From: Methylotenera oryzisoli
Lineage (GTDB): Bacteria > Pseudomonadota > Gammaproteobacteria > Burkholderiales > Methylophilaceae
Direction of reading: 5' to 3'
Length of the DNA: 64,000 bases
Assembly: GCA_945881735.1 (NCBI GenBank)
Contig: CAMCVF010000004.1
Location: 62,001 to 126,000 of the forward strand
Shown piece by piece: positions 32,900-46,618 of this stretch; position 1 is the stretch's first letter, and the number at the start of each line of letters is the position of its first letter. A program made the position numbers and the translations under genes. The notes under the pieces were generated by a model. That model was not told the DNA's origin and did not search any database. It saw only the letters and a program-made list of their open reading frames with translations.

Positions 32900-33736
32900 A
32901 TGGCAACTTACGCAATTGGTGATATTCAGGGCTGTTACCACGCATTTAGGGCGCTGCTAACGTGCTTGTCGTTTAACCCACTGCATGATCAACTACGATT
33001 GGTTGGCGATTTAATTAATCGCGGTAACGGCTCGCTTGAAGTGTTGCGCTGGTGCTATCAACATCAGTCATCAATTAAAGTGGTATTGGGCAATCACGAT
33101 TTACACGCGCTTGCGGTGGCGCATCATCTTAAAAAAGCCCATAAAAGTGATACCTTGCAAGCAATTATGGATGCCGCTGATGTCGTTGATTTACTGACTT
33201 GGCTACGTCACCAGCCGCTGATGATTGTCGATATGGATGATAATCAAATGCGTTATGCCGCAGTGCACGCAGGCTTATTGCCACAATGGTCTATCAATTC
33301 GGCGTTAGCTTATTCGCAAGAAGTAGAGCGCGCATTGCAGGCGCACGATTATCAACTTTTTCTGGCTAATATGTATGGCGACCAGCCAGCTAATTGGCAA
33401 GATGATCTAATTGGAGTTGATCGACTTAAAGTAATTACCAACGCCATGACGCGCATGCGTGTGTGCAAAGCTGATGGTGAAATGGAATTTGCGTTCAAAG
33501 GACAGTTGCAAGATGTGCCTGCCGATTACATGCCTTGGTTTAATGCACCAAATCGGCATTCACAAAATACCCGAATATATTGCGGGCATTGGTCTGCGCT
33601 GGGTTTTAGTCAACGTAATAATGTAACTAGCCTTGATACAGGCTGTTTATGGGGTGGACAGTTGAGTGCCATTTGCATTGAAACGGGTGCTATTACACAG
33701 GTGCAGCACGATACAAGAGATACGCCTTTAAGCTAA
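32900..33736 (+). CDS. apaH: symmetrical bis(5'-nucleosyl)-tetraphosphatase
   Basis: Hydrolyses Ap4A to two ADP and so limits dinucleoside alarmones and Np4 RNA caps. The metallophosphatase motifs are all visible: IGDIQGCY (residues 6-13), LVGDLINRG, VLGNHDLH, VHAGLLPQW and YCGHW. At 278 residues it is full length. Its end overlaps the convergent acyltransferase gene by nine bases. Confidence 0.96.
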   Translation: MATYAIGDIQGCYHAFRALLTCLSFNPLHDQLRLVGDLINRGNGSLEVLRWCYQHQSSIKVVLGNHDLHALAVAHHLKKAHKSDTLQAIMDAADVVDLLTWLRHQPLMIVDMDDNQMRYAAVHAGLLPQWSINSALAYSQEVERALQAHDYQLFLANMYGDQPANWQDDLIGVDRLKVITNAMTRMRVCKADGEMEFAFKGQLQDVPADYMPWFNAPNRHSQNTRIYCGHWSALGFSQRNNVTSLDTGCLWGGQLSAICIETGAITQVQHDTRDTPLS

Positions 33737-34474
33737 TTTAGCCACAATGGCGTCATACGCGGCTTGTGTTAAATCATGTCTATCTTTGCCTGAAGTTTTA
33801 ATTGGGCTTAAAAAATGTAATTCTACAAGTGCGTTTTTTTGCTTTATTACTTCAAGCATCGACTCAATCAATACTGTTTCGCCCGCGTAAGCCATATTCG
33901 TGTTGATGCTACCATCTTTGTTTACATAACGAATTGCCACCGGCCAAATGACGCTATTGGCGGAAATCGCGGCCTGTAATACGCTGCTTTTAAACGGCAA
34001 AACTTGCTTGCCATCTGTTGTTGTACCTTCTGGAAAAAAACATAAATTATCGCCTGCTATTAAGCTGGCAGCGGTGATATTAACGATTTTGGCCGCTTCT
34101 TGTTTTTTGCTTCTATCAATAAATAAAGTATTAGCTTTTGCAACCAAATAGCCAAATATAGGCCAGCTTCTAATTTCAGCTTTGGCAATAAAGCGCAACG
34201 CTATTTTACTGTTTAGCGCATGAATATCTGACCATGATATGTGATTCGCCACAAACATCACACCTCTTGTGCTGCTTGGAGGCAGATTGCCAAAAGTGAC
34301 TACTTTGATGTGAAAAGCGCGCAATAATCCAGCACACCACCATTTAATGATCGCCGCTTTTTTATTTTTATTAATAAAAGATAAAAAAACTGAGGCAATT
34401 ATTAATCCAACAATGGTGTGAAGGAAAACATGCGCAATGCGGTAAATTTGAGCGATTAAGCTGGTTTGATGCAA
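33728..34474 (-). CDS. lysophospholipid acyltransferase (PlsC/OlsA-like)
   Basis: An inner-membrane acyltransferase that esterifies a lyso-lipid. The PlsC motifs are present: NHISWSD (catalytic HxxxxD, near residue 79), FIDRSKK and FPEGTTTDG. Paired with the OlsB-like gene directly upstream, its most likely role is the second step of ornithine-lipid synthesis (OlsA). The reading frame continues from that gene with only one TAA between them; the start given is the TTG next to the stop, since no in-frame ATG occurs until residue 74. No ribosome-binding site is seen. Confidence 0.8.
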   Translation of the reverse strand: MHQTSLIAQIYRIAHVFLHTIVGLIIASVFLSFINKNKKAAIIKWWCAGLLRAFHIKVVTFGNLPPSSTRGVMFVANHISWSDIHALNSKIALRFIAKAEIRSWPIFGYLVAKANTLFIDRSKKQEAAKIVNITAASLIAGDNLCFFPEGTTTDGKQVLPFKSSVLQAAISANSVIWPVAIRYVNKDGSINTNMAYAGETVLIESMLEVIKQKNALVELHFLSPIKTSGKDRHDLTQAAYDAIVAKLA

Positions 34475-35272
34475 TTATTTTAAGAAATGCGAAGCATATC
34501 GTCCGTTAATTTTTGATAACGGTAACATTACCAGCATATCGGCTGTATTGAAATGGGCATCCCACGCTGGTTCGCCACAAATATAAGCGCCTAGTCTTAG
34601 ATAGCCCTTAATAAGGGGCGGGCAGATCACTTGCACATCTTGATTTAGCGCGTGAATTGGCAAGGCTATGCGCGGAAAAACGCGGTATTCAGGCGGTGAT
34701 AGGTAATCTTCTTTAAGTTTATTGTACAAACTAGCCGCCATATGGCCGCCATCGTTAATTGGAACGCTTCCGCAACCAATCATATATTCATAGTTATGCG
34801 TTTGCATATATTTGGCTAAACCGGCCCAAAGCATGGCAATGGTGCCCCCGTTGCGATAATTTTGATGCACGCAAGCGCGGCCGACTTCTACCGTGCTTTT
34901 AAATAAGTGGGATAAGCGTGTTAAATCAAATTCGCCTGCAGAATAATAGCCTCCTGCTTCGTTAGCTTTTTCCGGACTTAAAATTCGGTAAGTGCCAACC
35001 ACTTGATTAGTCGTTGTTTCGCGCACTAGTAAGTGCTCACAAAATTCGTCAAAACCATCTACGTCTAATCCGCCGCGACCAGTTAAATGGGCGCCCATTT
35101 CTTCTGCAAATACTTTATAGCGCAAGCGTTGTGCTTCAGCTACTTCGGCGGGGTTGCGCGCCAAACTAATGCTAACGCCTCTTGGCTGATTGTTTAGCTG
35201 GTTGCTTGTCTGATTGCTAGTTTGGTTAATAGCTTGTTGGTCCTGTTGCTGAGCATTTTTATTATCAAACAT
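34475..35272 (-). CDS. olsB: GNAT-type N-acyltransferase (OlsB-like, ornithine lipid synthesis)
   Basis: Transfers a 3-hydroxy fatty acid from ACP to ornithine in the known OlsB pathway. It is a GNAT-fold protein of the hemolysin-like group: RLRYKVFAEEMGAH, DEFCEHLLVRE, VVGTYRIL, VEVGRACVHQNYRNGGTIAMLWAGL and MIGCGSVP. The first 30 residues are a Gln/Asn/Thr-rich low-complexity stretch absent from most relatives (QTSNQTSNQLNNQ). GGAGAG precedes the ATG. OlsB identity is from family resemblance plus the OlsA-like neighbour; ornithine itself cannot be inferred from the sequence. Confidence 0.8.
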   Translation of the reverse strand: MFDNKNAQQQDQQAINQTSNQTSNQLNNQPRGVSISLARNPAEVAEAQRLRYKVFAEEMGAHLTGRGGLDVDGFDEFCEHLLVRETTTNQVVGTYRILSPEKANEAGGYYSAGEFDLTRLSHLFKSTVEVGRACVHQNYRNGGTIAMLWAGLAKYMQTHNYEYMIGCGSVPINDGGHMAASLYNKLKEDYLSPPEYRVFPRIALPIHALNQDVQVICPPLIKGYLRLGAYICGEPAWDAHFNTADMLVMLPLSKINGRYASHFLK

Positions 35273-35415
35273 TAAATCTCTCCGATATTTCAGAAGATTT
35301 TATGTGCTGAATATGAATTATTGATGAAAATTAAATGACTAAATGATGACAGAAAAATGAAGGTATTACATTAATTGTCTACATTAAAGACTTAGATTTA
35401 GTAGTCTAGACTTTT

Positions 35416-39532: not shown

Positions 39533-42500
39533 ATGAACGCACCTATACCTGCCAAAATCTTGCAAAATGAACCAGCACCAGCTGCTGCACGTTTGCGTGA
39601 AATCCCTTATAACTACACCTCATTTTCGGATCGCGAAATTGTCATTCGTTTTTTAGGTGAAGAGATTTGGGATATCTTAAATGAGCTGCGCGGAGAGCGT
39701 AAAACCGGCCGCAGCGCGCGCATGTTGTTTGAAGTGCTGGGCGATTTATGGGTGGTGAGCCGCAACCCGTATCTGCAAGATGACTTATTGGATAATCCGA
39801 AACGCCGTAAAGCCTTGATTGATGCGCTTTACCATCGCATTAAAGCCATTGATGAGCGTAATGTAAACGGTAATAACAGTGGCAATGAAAAAGTAGAAAA
39901 ATTGGTTGTCGCTGCTACAAATGCGGTTGAAAAATTTGATGAAGACTTTCGTCAAACCTATGACTTACGCAAAAAAGCATTAGCGAAATACAGCAAAATC
40001 ACGCGCAAAGATAACATTCAGTTTGATGGCTTAGCGCGTGTTTCACACGTAACAGATGCTACCGACTGGCGCGTGGAATATCCATTCGTAGTACTTAACC
40101 CTGATACAGAAATCGAAATTGCCGCTTTGGTTAAAGCCAGTATTGAGCTGGGTTTAACGGTGATTCCGCGCGGAGGCGGAACAGGTTATACAGGTGGCGC
40201 AATCCCGTTAACACCATTGTCTGTGGTAATTAATACCGAAAAATTAGACCGCCACACCGGCGTGCAGATGCGTACATTGCCAGGGGTTGCGCGCCAAGTG
40301 GCCACCATTGAGTGTGGTGCAGGCGTTGTCACACGCCGCGCAATGGAAGCGGCAACTGAAGCAGGCTTAGAGTTTGCCTGCGACCCAACATCTGCCGACG
40401 CTAGCTGTATTGGCGGCAACGTAGCTGTGAATGCAGGCGGTAAAAAAGCTGTGCTGTGGGGCACTGCGCTGGATAATTTGGCTTCATACCGCATGGTAAC
40501 GCCAGATGCGACATGGATTGAAGTGGAGCGCTTAGACCATAACCTGGGCAAAATCCACGATATTGCCATGGCGCGCTTCAAAATCAGCCGTTTTGATATT
40601 GATATGAAAACGCAGTTGGGCGAACCCGAGATTATTAGCATCCCTGGCCCCAGTTTTAGAAAAGTAGGTTTAGGTAAAGATGTAACAGACAAGTTTTTAA
40701 GCGGCTTGCCGGGTATTCAAAAAGAGGGTTGCGATGGCTTGATTACCAGCGCCACCTTTATTTTGCACCGTATGCCTAAATATGTGCGCACTATTGCTTT
40801 GGAGTTTTTTGGCAATGTGTCTCACGCTGTGCCTGCCATCGTTGAGATTAAAGACTATCTGGATTCGACTGCCAAGCACACGCCAGCCGTAATCATGGCT
40901 GGCTTAGAGCATATGGATGAGCGTTATATCAAAGCGGTTGGCTATGCTACTAAAGCGGCGCGTCAGCAGCGCCCGAAAATGGTATTGATTGCCGATATTG
41001 CCTCTGACGATGAAAACGCAGTGGGTGAAGTCGCGTCTGCCATGGTGCGTATGTGTAACGCCAAAAACGGTGAAGGTTTTATTGCTGTTTCAGCTGAAGC
41101 GCGCAAAAAATTCTGGTTAGATCGCGCGCGAACAGCCGCCATTGCCAAGCACACCAATGCTTTTAAAATCAATGAAGACGTTGTGATTCCATTGCCTAAA
41201 CTAGGCGACTATTCAGATGGTATCGAGCGTATTAATATTGAGCTTTCAATTGATAATAAGCTCAAATTAGTGGATGCCTTAGAAGCGTTTATGCAGACCG
41301 AGTTACCACTGCAAGCCGATGAAGATGGCAATGCCGATGCAGAAATGGTGCACTCTAAGCAGTTAATTGCATTGCAATTATTACGTGATTTACGCGCGAA
41401 ATGGCGCTTGATTCTCAATACGCTAGATGAGCCAGTGGGCGTATTGGGAGAGCTTGGTAAACCACATACGCAATACGAAAATGTGTTCCGTGCGGTGCAA
41501 TCTTACGATTTGCGTATCTCTTGGAAGCGCGAACTGAAGCGCCCAATGGCAGAGATTTTTGCTGGCCGCGAATACCAAAAAATCTTGACGCGTTTTGATG
41601 AAATCCACAAAGCTGTGCTTAAAAGTCGCGTCTTTATTGCCTTGCATATGCATGCGGGTGACGGAAACGTGCACACTAATATTCCTGTTAATTCTGACGA
41701 TTACGGCATGATGAAACAAGCGCATGATGCGGTGGACCGCGTAATGGCGTTGGCTAAAGGCTTAAACGGTGTGATTTCTGGTGAGCATGGTATTGGCATT
41801 ACCAAAATGGAATATCTGGATCAAGCCACCATTGATAATTTTACAGCTTACAAAAATAAAGTGGACCCAAATGGCCACTTTAACAAAGGCAAGTTATTGG
41901 CAGGCTCTGGGCTTGAGAACGCCTACACCCCAAGCTTTGGCTTGCTGGAACAAGAATCTATCATCATGGAGCAATCCGCTATTGGCGAAATTGCCGATGA
42001 TATTAGCGATTGTTTACGTTGCGGTAAGTGCAAGCCTGTGTGTACTACGCATGTGCCGCGTGCCAATTTGTTGTATAGTCCGCGTAATAAGATTTTAGGT
42101 ACGTCATTATTGATTGAAGCGTTCTTGTATGAAGAACAAACACGGCGTGGTATTTCACTTAAACACTTTGATGAATTTAATGATGTAGCTGACCATTGCA
42201 CGGTTTGCCATAAATGCTTGAATCCATGCCCTGTGGATATCGATTTTGGTGATGTTTCGATCAAAATGCGTAACTTTTTGCGCGAACAAGGTAAAAAGCA
42301 ATTTAATCCTGGTACTGCCGCGGGTATGCTGTTTTTAAACGCCAAAGACCCAGCCACCATTAAATTTTTACGCACTACAATGATAGGCTGGGGTTTCAAA
42401 GCACAGAATATTGCGCATACGCTGTCGAAAAAATTTGGCCTGCTTAAAGATAAATTGCGTCCACCAGCCACTGTTGGCAAACCAGAGATAAAAGCGCAAG

Positions 42501-43420
42501 TGATTCACTTTATCAATAGGCCAATGCCCAGAAAAATGCAGTCTAAGACATCACGCGCCATGTTGGGTGTAGAAGACAGTAATATGATTCCTGTGATACG
42601 CAACCCGCTTAAAGTGACAGAAGAATCGGAAGCGGTGTTTTATTTTCCTGGTTGCGGTTCAGAACGTTTATTTTCAAATGTTGGTTTAGCCACACAAGCG
42701 ATGTTGTATGAAGTTGGTGCAATCACCGTATTGCCGCCGGGTTATTTGTGTTGTGGCTACCCGCAAACATCCAGTGGTAATCACGATAAAGGCCAAGAAA
42801 TTACCGCCGACAATCGCGTGTTATTCCATCGTGTCGCGAACACATTAAATTATCTGGATATCAAGACAGTTATCGTTTCTTGCGGTACCTGTATGGATCA
42901 GCTGCAAAAATACGAATTTGAGAAGATATTCCCAGGTTGCAGATTGTTGGATATTCACGAATATCTGATGGAAAAAGACATGCGCTTGCAAACGGTAACG
43001 GGTACGCGTTATATGTATCATGACCCTTGCCACAGCCCAATGAAAACCTATAAGCCAATGGAAGTGACCAATAAGCTAATGGGTCAAGAAGTGCAATTAA
43101 ACGACCGTTGCTGCGGTGAAAGCGGTACCTTTGCGGCTGCGCGACCTGATATTGCCACGCAAGTTAAATTCCGCAAGCAAGAAGAGCTGGAAAAAGGCAT
43201 GCATAAAATGGGCTTAACTGTTGGTAAGCCTGAAGAAAATGTCAAAATTTTAACTAGCTGCCCAAGCTGCCTGCAAGGCCTAGCGCGCTATGGTGACGAT
43301 ACGGGTATTGAAGCGGATTACATTGTGGTTGAAATGGCAAAACATATTCTGGGTGAAAACTGGATGGAAGAATATGTTGAGCGGGTGAATAACGGCGGGA
43401 TTGAGAAAGTGTTATTGTAA
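39533..43420 (+). CDS. large FAD-linked oxidoreductase with Fe-S and CCG domains (DUF3683 type)
   Basis: A 1295-residue fused dehydrogenase that combines what GlcD and GlcF do separately. Order: an N-terminal DUF3683-like region (about 20-150), the FAD-binding PCMH domain (about 183-390, [18 protein letters not shown]), the FAD-oxidase C-terminal domain to about 800 ([25 protein letters not shown]), two 4Fe-4S motifs ([11 protein letters not shown] near 827 and [12 protein letters not shown] near 888), then CCG domains (CCGYPQTS near 1073, CCGESG near 1193). D-lactate or a similar 2-hydroxyacid is a likely substrate, unproven. It is monocistronic. Confidence 0.88.
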
Positions 43421-43632: not shown

Positions 43633-45570
43633 ATGAAAAAATTTTACGCAACAATTACTCTGTTGCTATTTTTTTGCCAAATGCAGGCAATACAGGCCGC
43701 TACGCTTGTGGGTTGGGCAGAGATGTCTATGCACACTTACGCGCAGGGGCCAACGGCTGGGCAGTTTAACGTTAGTGCTGATGTCTCTAGTAACAAGCAG
43801 GTGGTGCAAGGTTTTTCGGCAGTTTTGCAATCGAGTGCCGAAAACAATTTTTATTTTTTGACTGATAATGGTTTTGGTGAAAAGAGTAATTCAGCCGATG
43901 CATTGCTTAGGCTGTATGAAGTGCATGTTGTCTTTAATGACTCCAGTACTAAAAAAGATGCCGTCACGCCGCTGCGTTTTATCAATATCAAAGATTCTGA
44001 TAAAAAGTTAACTTTTAAAATACAAGCCGATTATAGCCATTATTATGATGTGCCGCGTAATCCTATTGTTGATATCGATATTAGCGAAAACAGATGGTTA
44101 ACAGGTGCGGATATTGACCCAGAATCAGTGCGCATCGATAAAAATGGATATTTGTGGCTGGGCGATGAGTTTGGGCCATTTTTACTTAAGATAGATTCAA
44201 CTGGAAAGGTGTTGCGGTCAGAAATACCGTTGCCAGACGTCACATCGCCAGACAATCCAAATATCATTAACCTTAAGCCAAATTTGCCTTCTAGTGGCGG
44301 TTTTGAAGGCATGGCGATTAATCCGTCTGGTGATTTGTTGTACCCAATGCTTGAGGCGAAGGTAGAAGGTGATGCTGAAAAGACCTTAAGAATTTATCAG
44401 TTTGATGTCAATGCCGAGCGATACACCGATGTGATTTTTCACTATAGGTTAGATGCGCAAGCAAGCAATATTGGTGATTTTATTGCAGTTAATGACCATG
44501 AGTTTTTGGTGCTAGAGCGAAATGCAGCCACAAAATTAGAAGATAAACCATTTAAAAAAGTCTACTTGATTGATATTAATCAGATTGATGACAAGCAGTT
44601 TGTGCAAAAGCGTGAGTTGGTTGATTTAATGCAGTTGCAAGACCCGAATGATTTAAATAAAGATGGTCAATTGACTTATGCATTTGCGTATTCGCATATT
44701 GAAAACTTATTGATTCTGGACAAAAGTACTTTGATGCTTGCTAACGATAATAACTATGCTGGGCGTACTTATTTTATTAAAATTAAAATGGATAACGACT
44801 TGAATTTTTCCAGCTTTAATCAACCCAGTCTTAATAAAAGCGACTGGATAGAGAGTAAACCACAGCCATTTGGATTTAATTTTGGTGACCATAGTTTTTT
44901 TGGGTGGATGACAGTATTGCTTTACTTTGTAGCCAGTATGCGAACAGGCTACAAGTCTAAATTAACCATAAGAGATAAAGAAAGTTGCTATTTTTGGTTG
45001 AGTTTAACCGCTTTATTAGTATTTTTTGGCTTAAACAAGCAGCTAGATTTACAGTCAGATTTAACCGATTGGTTACGTACTTTGTCAAAAGCACATGGCT
45101 GGTACGATCAGCGCAGAGGAGTTCAGCTATTATTTATATCAGTAATGGGGTTGGCTATTCCAATCTTGCTTATTTCTTTGCGATTATTTTTGTACCACTC
45201 ATGGCAGCATTATAAAATAACTTGGGTGGGCATTGTGTTGCTGTCGATTTTTGTCATGGTGCGGGCGGCATCGTTTCATCATGTTGATCTTATTTTTTAC
45301 CAAACCATTGGCAGTATTCGCTATTATCAACTATTAGAAATGCTGGCAATTAGCTTAATTATTGTAGGCACTTTTTTTGAGAATAAAAAAATCCTTCCAA
45401 CGATTAAATCAAAAATGGATGCAAATAATATTGTGTATATTAAAGCGAAAGGCGATTTGGTCAATTGCCCCAGTTGTGGCAAAAAGCCCTTGGCAGAAAC
45501 CAAACATGGTCGTGTATTCAAGTGCAAATCTTGCCGACATATTTACGAAACTCGTGTTTCAGACGATTAA
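43633..45570 (+). CDS. phytase-like esterase domain fused to a five-helix membrane module and a zinc ribbon
   Basis: A 645-residue protein with three parts. Residues 1-22 are a signal peptide. Residues about 50-395 form a periplasmic 'esterase-like activity of phytase' beta-propeller (NFYFLTDNGFGEK, DIDPESVRIDKNGYLWLGDEFGPFLLKID, GGFEGMAINPSGDLLYPMLEA, FLVLERNA). Five membrane helices follow from about 416 to 590, with NKQLDLQ and GWYDQRRGVQLLFI between them. The C-terminal cytoplasmic end carries a zinc ribbon: Cys612, 615, 631, 634. Positive-inside residues support this topology. The substrate is unknown. pyrD follows after 19 bases. Confidence 0.8.
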   Translation: MKKFYATITLLLFFCQMQAIQAATLVGWAEMSMHTYAQGPTAGQFNVSADVSSNKQVVQGFSAVLQSSAENNFYFLTDNGFGEKSNSADALLRLYEVHVVFNDSSTKKDAVTPLRFINIKDSDKKLTFKIQADYSHYYDVPRNPIVDIDISENRWLTGADIDPESVRIDKNGYLWLGDEFGPFLLKIDSTGKVLRSEIPLPDVTSPDNPNIINLKPNLPSSGGFEGMAINPSGDLLYPMLEAKVEGDAEKTLRIYQFDVNAERYTDVIFHYRLDAQASNIGDFIAVNDHEFLVLERNAATKLEDKPFKKVYLIDINQIDDKQFVQKRELVDLMQLQDPNDLNKDGQLTYAFAYSHIENLLILDKSTLMLANDNNYAGRTYFIKIKMDNDLNFSSFNQPSLNKSDWIESKPQPFGFNFGDHSFFGWMTVLLYFVASMRTGYKSKLTIRDKESCYFWLSLTALLVFFGLNKQLDLQSDLTDWLRTLSKAHGWYDQRRGVQLLFISVMGLAIPILLISLRLFLYHSWQHYKITWVGIVLLSIFVMVRAASFHHVDLIFYQTIGSIRYYQLLEMLAISLIIVGTFFENKKILPTIKSKMDANNIVYIKAKGDLVNCPSCGKKPLAETKHGRVFKCKSCRHIYETRVSDD

Positions 45571-45589: not shown

Positions 45590-46618
45590 GTGATTAACAT
45601 TGTGAATTTATACCCGCTTGCAAAACCATTTTTATTTCAATTAGATGCTGAAAAAGCGCATGACATCACGCTGAAAAGTTTGAAATGGGCTGAAAAATTA
45701 GGTGCCTTAAATGTGTATCCTAAGCCGCCTGTTTGTGCGCCACGCCAAATCATGGGAATTACTTTTCCTAATTCGGTAGGCTTAGCGGCGGGCTTAGATA
45801 AAAATGGCGCTGTGATTGACGGCATTGCTAAGCTGGGATTTGGCTTTATTGAAATAGGCACGGTAACGCCACGTGCTCAACCTGGTAATGCTAAGCCGCG
45901 CTTGTTTAGAGTTAAAGAAGCGCAAGGCATTATTAACCGCTTTGGTTTTAATAATTTGGGCGTGGATAATCTGGTTGAGAATGTAAAAACAGCGCAGTAT
46001 AAGGGCGTGCTTGGCATTAATATTGGCAAAAACTTTGATACACCCATTGAAAACGCGACTGATGATTATTTAATTGGCATGCGTAAAGTGTATGCCTATG
46101 CGAGCTATATCACGGTGAATATTTCTTCCCCAAACACTAAAAATTTACGTGCCTTGCAAGAGAAAGAAGCTTTATCCAGTTTGTTAGCCAACCTAAAGCT
46201 AGAGCAAATTAAATTAGCACAGCAACATGGTAAATATGTGCCAATTACATTAAAAATTGCACCCGATTTAACGCAAGACCAAGTGACTGAAATTGCTGAT
46301 TTACTTATGCAGCATCAAATAGATGGCGTGATTGCAACCAACACTACTTTAAGCCGTGACGCGATAAAAGGAATGCAAAATAGTGAAGAAACTGGAGGCT
46401 TATCCGGTACGCCAGTGCGCAATCAATCTACTATCGTTATTCAACAGCTTTCAAACCAGTTGCAAGGTGCGCTACCAATTATAGGCGTTGGCGGCATTTT
46501 GAGTGGCGCAGACGCGGTTGAAAAAGTTGCTTCTGGTGCTAGTTTAATACAGATTTACAGCGGCTTAATATATAAAGGCCCTGAGTTGGTTCACGATATT
46601 TGCAAAATTTTAAGATAG
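45590..46618 (+). CDS. pyrD: dihydroorotate dehydrogenase (quinone), class 2
   Basis: Oxidises dihydroorotate to orotate in pyrimidine synthesis, passing electrons to ubiquinone at the inner membrane. The membrane-binding N-terminal helices ([22 protein letters not shown]) mark class 2. The catalytic loop [12 protein letters not shown] with its Ser and the FMN motifs [31 protein letters not shown] and [27 protein letters not shown] are all present. The start is GTG, either 45590 or 45602. At 342 residues it is full length. Confidence 0.95.

Follow-up and report, generated by a model that had tools for sequence, protein, structure and literature searches.

Phosphate starvation induces proteins called phytase-like in Nodularia, where one table lists log2 changes of 5.53 and 3.82 in its first two columns (PMC9846622), and in a diatom, with a tabulated change of 7.4 (PMC7283521); neither account gives a Pfam accession for them. 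PhoX and Psip1 are exported beta-propeller phosphatases that need iron and calcium, and in the account of these enzymes the term 'phytase-like' denotes a separate domain that may accompany Psip1 (PMC11098088). PhoX and Psip1 are compared with the propeller described below by functional analogy only, not by alignment of their sequences.

We analysed a 64,000-nucleotide stretch of the Methylotenera oryzisoli genome, referred to as the window, in which a single gene joins a Phytase-like propeller to a five-helix membrane module and a zinc ribbon. The features of this gene and of its two syntenic markers are as follows (motif sets A and B are defined below).

39533..43420, + strand: upstream syntenic marker, a DUF3683 / FAD oxidase / iron-sulphur protein
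43633..45570, + strand: whole fusion gene, 645 amino acids, one unbroken frame; same fusion in genomes G003 and G486
43633..43701, + strand: signal-peptide-like N-terminus, approximately residues 1-23 (judged visually; the full-length model has a helix at 2-25)
43801..44757, + strand: Phytase-like propeller, residues 57-375 (PF13449, conserved residues and tree)
44896..44973, + strand: predicted helix TM1, residues 422-447 (AlphaFold2 module model)
44989..45045, + strand: predicted helix TM2, residues 453-471 (AlphaFold2 module model)
45034..45054, + strand: NKQLDLQ motif, residues 468-474, set A (alignment of modules)
45097..45126, + strand: GWYDQRRGVQ motif, residues 489-498, with Y491, R494 and Q498 of set B
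45103..45189, + strand: predicted helix TM3, residues 491-519 (AlphaFold2 module model)
45214..45270, + strand: predicted helix TM4, residues 528-546 (AlphaFold2 module model)
45262..45288, + strand: RAASFHHVD motif, residues 544-552, with S547, H549 and D552 of set B
45322..45378, + strand: predicted helix TM5, residues 564-582, with conserved E569 of set B (AlphaFold2 model and alignment)
45460..45540, + strand: four-cysteine zinc ribbon, residues 610-636, predicted cytoplasmic (CxxC pairs and Pfam scan)
45590..46618, + strand: downstream syntenic marker, dihydroorotate dehydrogenase gene pyrD, 19 bases past the stop codon

In agreement with the initial annotation, the signal-peptide-like start, the propeller, the five predicted helices and the ribbon share one uninterrupted frame of 645 codons. 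The Pfam scan matched the protein to PF13449 (Phytase-like) with an E value of 9.6e-54 and 183.6 bits, against a cut-off of 27.6, and the match covers model positions 2-284 of 284. Judged by eye, the N-terminus resembles a Sec signal peptide, with hydrophobic residues at 8-26 followed by ..AIQAATLVG. Cysteines occur at positions 15, 452, 612, 615, 631 and 634, and the last four, which had been placed exactly, form the two CxxC knuckles C612/615 and C631/634 of the ribbon. The profile searches put no name to the other two parts: the best Pfam match of the ribbon (Zn_ribbon_IS1595, residues 610-636) reached 19.3 bits against a cut-off of 25.4, and no Pfam or NCBIfam model covers the module. PEP-CTERM was not among the eight Pfam families matched up to E 1, and the ribbon forms the C-terminal end. 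Sequence searches of the PDB with the whole protein and four fused proteins returned weak rows only.

The survey of fused and separate forms that had been proposed for this gene was carried out. In a search of 61 genomes, its own included, the same architecture was found in G003 (66% identity), and a search of 187 Methylophilaceae genomes added the same fusion in G486 (57%), where a run of Ns breaks the module and the remainder, ribbon included, resumes in another frame past the gap. G005 and G014 encode a diverged fused protein without the ribbon (38% and 36% identity), giving the fusion in 5 of the 187 genomes; other genomes have stand-alone modules at the same place. Compared with G003, dN is 0.20 for the propeller, for which dS is saturated, and 0.19 for the module, with a dS of 1.89. 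The ribbon is the least conserved part: it is 41% identical to its counterpart in G003, whereas propeller and module reach 69%. The initial annotation had asked whether a frameshift or an assembly join might have merged two adjoining genes. Such a merge has in its favour that the parts occur as separate genes in relatives, but the frame is continuous in G003 and also in G005 and G014, whose parts have diverged, and constraint acts on both sides of the join. These observations contradict the merge, which we consider exceedingly improbable. The fusion is real, as independent assemblies contain it at the corresponding locus.

The gene order in the window is DUF3683 FAD oxidase, fusion gene, pyrD, a glutathione transferase-like gene and clpA, and the slot between the oxidase and pyrD is the same wherever a contig spans both. 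At seven named loci (L045-L049, L051 and L052) a stand-alone module with ribbon occupies this slot alone. The slot of G003 (L044) holds a stand-alone copy followed by the fused copy, the oxidase lying past the contig end, and that of G005 and G014 (L054 and L053) a fused copy followed by a stand-alone one; L050 is the G486 record, with its ribbon past the assembly gap. Two further loci, L055 and L056, have the oxidase upstream and neither ribbon nor downstream pyrD. Among the best 80 of the 283 module loci described below, two CxxC pairs within the last 60 residues were found at ten, and pyrD is the next gene in all ten.

The five fused propellers group in a single clade (100/100) in a tree of 20 propellers, and this clade is nested within propellers from the same order. 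When 399 genomes of that order were searched, the six closest unfused propellers were 46-52% identical; five of them carry a PEP-CTERM tail, as judged by eye and confirmed for one by Pfam PF07589. The expectation that secreted phytase-like domains end after the propeller holds for the remaining one, the bare-ended propeller of G928, but not for these five. Because the fused clade is nested among PEP-CTERM propellers, the module appears to occupy the former place of the sorting tail. The window genome has two exosortases, both on other contigs, and a search of this genome gave no second PF13449 gene. Our literature search found no paper linking PF13449 or phytase-like proteins with PEP-CTERM. 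Elsewhere in the family, L012 and 11 other genomes have a Phytase-like propeller in two matching halves, in frames of 803-1001 residues; in L012, the one scanned of these split propellers, a GDPD domain lies between the halves.

The residues conserved across the 20 propellers, acidic ones included, are kept in the window; among the 65 columns where 18 or more of the 20 propellers share a letter, the window protein differs at a single one (S48). Together with the phosphate-starvation induction of proteins called phytase-like, this suggests that the propeller is probably a metal-dependent phosphomono- or diesterase. No Pho-box-like site was found before the fusion gene, where the best candidate mismatches at 6 of 14 letters; this weakens the case for plain phosphate scavenging. 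The five Pho-box-like matches in the window all lie elsewhere, and their number is not above chance (3.7 expected). On the minus strand at 33728-35272, olsB-like and olsA-like genes for ornithine lipid synthesis score 186.5 and 138.3 bits, below the equivalog cut-offs. Before the olsB-like gene, 8 kb from the fusion gene, positions 35335-35363 of the same strand contain TGTCAT-like repeats with an 11-base period that resemble a Pho box. Upstream of the orthologue in six relatives the best matches, taken at face value, have 2 to 4 of 14 letters wrong.

In the full-length AlphaFold2 model (mean pLDDT 60.0) the propeller, covered by three alignment rows, is modelled too poorly to show a beta-propeller fold. 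The module alone, modelled from 70 sequences, reached a mean pLDDT of 85.9 with five membrane-length helices. The module model contains an extra helix (473-488) between TM2 and TM3 and shows the ribbon as short strands. In a hydropathy scan with a 19-residue window, three of the five modelled helices passed the threshold. Across 70 aligned modules the predicted inside loops contain 2.4, 2.8 and 2.5 lysines plus arginines per sequence and the predicted outside loops 0.3, 1.5 and 1.5. This charge pattern agrees with the modelled topology, which is also the one proposed initially, with the propeller outside and the ribbon inside. This topology would place the conserved motifs towards the periplasm, with N468-Q474 closing TM2, Y491, R494 and Q498 opening TM3, R544-D552 closing TM4, and E569 within TM5. 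The window module keeps all 21 listed positions of the three motifs and E569; the invariance of NKQLDLQ in the 70-row alignment is partly due to selection, as this was the peptide used for scanning. Foldseek found no solved fold at E 0.001 or better (best 0.86), and the best VIA-align match, a taste receptor (Z 8.3, rmsd 4.7, 146 aligned), is in the range of helical bundles.

The resemblance of the membrane module to a stand-alone family was borne out. Scanning with the most conserved peptide gave 293 candidate loci, 283 of which were confirmed. The best 80 of these 283 were analysed; they come from Pseudomonadota, Verrucomicrobiota, Planctomycetota, Chloroflexota, Myxococcota, Thermodesulfobacteriota and Calditrichota. 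The distribution is patchy, with the module in 4 of 369 genomes of a class sample and 5 of 398 of a phylum sample, the window's own being counted in both. The most frequent match to a membrane family was TMEM220, in 4 of 70 members. Six of 12 plasmid matches (NZ_CP116424.1, for example) are labelled isopropylmalate isomerase and other family members hypothetical. The gene next to the module at nine loci is one that we take to be leuC-like, and the isomerase label probably arose because such a gene is often adjacent; our literature search found no paper on misannotated isopropylmalate isomerase. For 25 loci 185 neighbours were listed, and a scan of 91 of them revealed no strongly recurring family: glycosyltransferase family 2 was the commonest (8 of 91), and aconitase was matched by two.

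Several individual members are worth recording. The Ardenticatenaceae module L075:9971-11830 is extended at its C-terminus by some 400 residues that match no Pfam family at E 0.001. L184 (G1047) is a distant relative that keeps YxxRRxxQ, and L185 (G1012) another that keeps a YxxRRxxQ-like motif and the S...D pair; NKQLDLQ is absent from both, and both genomes have an exosortase. An apparent PAS-module fusion on two Sulfitobacter plasmid matches was rejected, the PAS protein overlapping on the opposite strand, and on visual inspection the apparent extensions at the N-termini of L063, L074, L105 and L114 were taken for shadow frames. What emerges is a widespread membrane family defined by motifs, model and co-occurrence and lacking a family model in the libraries searched.

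Genomes with two copies of the module divide its motifs. We defined set A as N468, K469, Q470, D472 and Q474, and set B as Y491, R494, Q498, S547, H549, D552 and E569. Of 21 module-bearing Methylophilaceae genomes, 16 have one apparent copy and five (G003, G005, G008, G014 and G021) have two. For 10 of the 16 a profile search gave one copy each; for the other six, single-copy status comes from a one-sequence search that had missed the second copy of G008. That profile search, over 132 genomes of the family, found no further pair. H549 is kept in all 16 apparent single copies, one of which (G009) has an altered set A (D468 and P474). In all five two-copy genomes one copy has H549 of SFHHVD replaced, by I, E, N, N and Q; the Q of G021 is accompanied by an H two places on. 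The copies lacking H549 retain four of the five set A residues in G003 and all five in the other four genomes. Their partners in G005, G008, G014 and G021 have lost three or all five set A residues and keep 7 of 7 in set B; in G005 and G014 these partners are the fused copies, which have lost NKQLDLQ. Only half of this complementary pattern fits G003, where the fused partner is complete and the stand-alone copy degenerate. The pair of G008 lies at L039:6947-8235 and that of G021 (L014 and L028) on separate contigs outside the pyrD slot. As G005 and G014 share the fused clade, and G008 and G021 share a partner type, the complementary loss represents perhaps two or three independent events.

The division of residues suggests that the module works through cooperating half-sites that different chains may supply. 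Such a split between paralogs offers a direct test of which residues act together, rare for membrane proteins of this kind, and in our view the module family and its paired copies are a more interesting result than the fusion architecture itself.

Exosortase genes were found in 39 of 50 module genomes, against 32 of 200 sampled Pseudomonadota (own included); the 50 were chosen by hand from the 80 loci, with uneven sampling. Within Pseudomonadota alone the count was 33 of 42 module genomes, and by genus it was 18 of 24 against 26 of 109 with the window's own genus left out (Fisher p 4e-6, ignoring relatedness). In Methylophilaceae, 17 of 21 genomes with the module have an exosortase against 49 of 166 without it. 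Small genomes confound this comparison, and most members of genus g20 have an exosortase whether the module is present or absent. At 12 of the best 80 loci, exosortase or EpsI genes occur no more than about 10 kb away. Ten neighbour proteins from three exosortase-linked loci gave matches that include EpsI, exosortase and PEP-CTERM-type chain-length proteins, several of them below cut-offs. We treat the association of module and exosortase as a lead.

We infer the following arrangement, to which as a whole we give about even chances. The product of the fusion gene would be an inner-membrane protein whose exported propeller, a phosphoesterase, is held at the periplasmic face by fusion to the five-helix module, with the zinc ribbon in the cytoplasm. 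The conserved polar residues of the module, NKQLDLQ on the one hand and Y-R-Q, S-H-D and E on the other, would gather at the periplasmic interface, where the two sets would probably combine into a single site, either inside one chain or across two. The fusion may have arisen once, in Methylophilaceae, when a gene for a PEP-CTERM-type propeller entered the slot ahead of pyrD and the resident module replaced the sorting tail as anchor. Some lineages, the window genome among them, would then have been left with the fused copy alone, while in others two copies divide the motif sets.

Other readings share much of this evidence. The module might be inactive in the fusion protein and merely retain the propeller at the membrane, standing in place of the PEP-CTERM tail; the two fused relatives that lost NKQLDLQ and the ribbon and kept the helical region would fit this. 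We regard it as quite unlikely, because the fusions of the window and G003 retain all listed motif residues, as does that of G486 where its sequence can be read, and set B is complete even in the diverged fusions. Alternatively, the module might itself be an enzyme whose substrate, a lipid-linked or exopolysaccharide precursor, is met on the periplasmic face, the propeller hydrolysing the phosphoester released. Clustering of the polar motifs on one membrane face, the exosortase or EpsI genes within 10 kb at 12 of those best 80 loci and the rank of glycosyltransferase family 2 among the neighbours speak for such a two-step reaction, which is possible but on balance unlikely: no fold or family match supports it, NKQLDLQ is gone from the fused copies of G005 and G014, the neighbours at the pyrD slot are unrelated housekeeping genes, and 11 of the 50 module genomes have no exosortase. 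A more specific speculation, equally unlikely in our estimate, makes the module an undescribed, dimeric membrane component linked to exosortase or exopolysaccharide systems, with half-sites NKQLDLQ and Y-R-Q/S-H-D/E contributed by opposite chains. The two-copy pairs would then be obligate heterodimers, and the window chain would unite both half-sites with a former PEP-CTERM substrate, a phosphoesterase.

The initial annotation suggested that the protein could sense or process a periplasmic substrate and signal through the membrane; sensing and signalling found no positive support. As a transmembrane sensor, the propeller would bind a periplasmic ligand and the helices would signal to the cytoplasmic ribbon, which would contact a partner. 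The predicted topology puts these parts in the right places, and all three fusions with complete motifs retain the ribbon (past the assembly gap in G486). However, the ribbon is already present on stand-alone modules at the slot that have no propeller, it is the least conserved part, two fused relatives do without it, and no signalling domain came to light on reading the module frames, of which two long ones were scanned with Pfam. We therefore consider the sensor improbable, and prefer a membrane-tethered, phosphoesterase-like domain.

Compared with known systems, each part of the fusion protein comes from a known or recurrent family, and the combination is a rare, lineage-specific architecture. 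Within the samples searched, relatives of either part elsewhere lack the full architecture, and within the limited terms searched the literature gave no report of a propeller-module fusion. Members of the stand-alone family have the helices and the motifs (NKQLDLQ, GWYxxRRxxQ and SFHHVD) of the window module, to which they are 23-46% identical among the rows aligned or listed, the closest fusions excepted; they have no propeller, and a ribbon was seen only in Methylophilaceae members at the pyrD slot. L012 has a propeller of the same Pfam family and differs from the window protein in its inserted GDPD domain and in that no five-helix module was seen. The PEP-CTERM PF13449 proteins of the same order, such as those of G041 and L005, share the conserved propeller residues; a short sorting tail ends five of the six nearest separate propellers, whereas the window protein continues into the five-helix module and the ribbon. 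In the window protein an exported domain is anchored permanently by many helices, at the position of the cleavable sorting tail found in its relatives.
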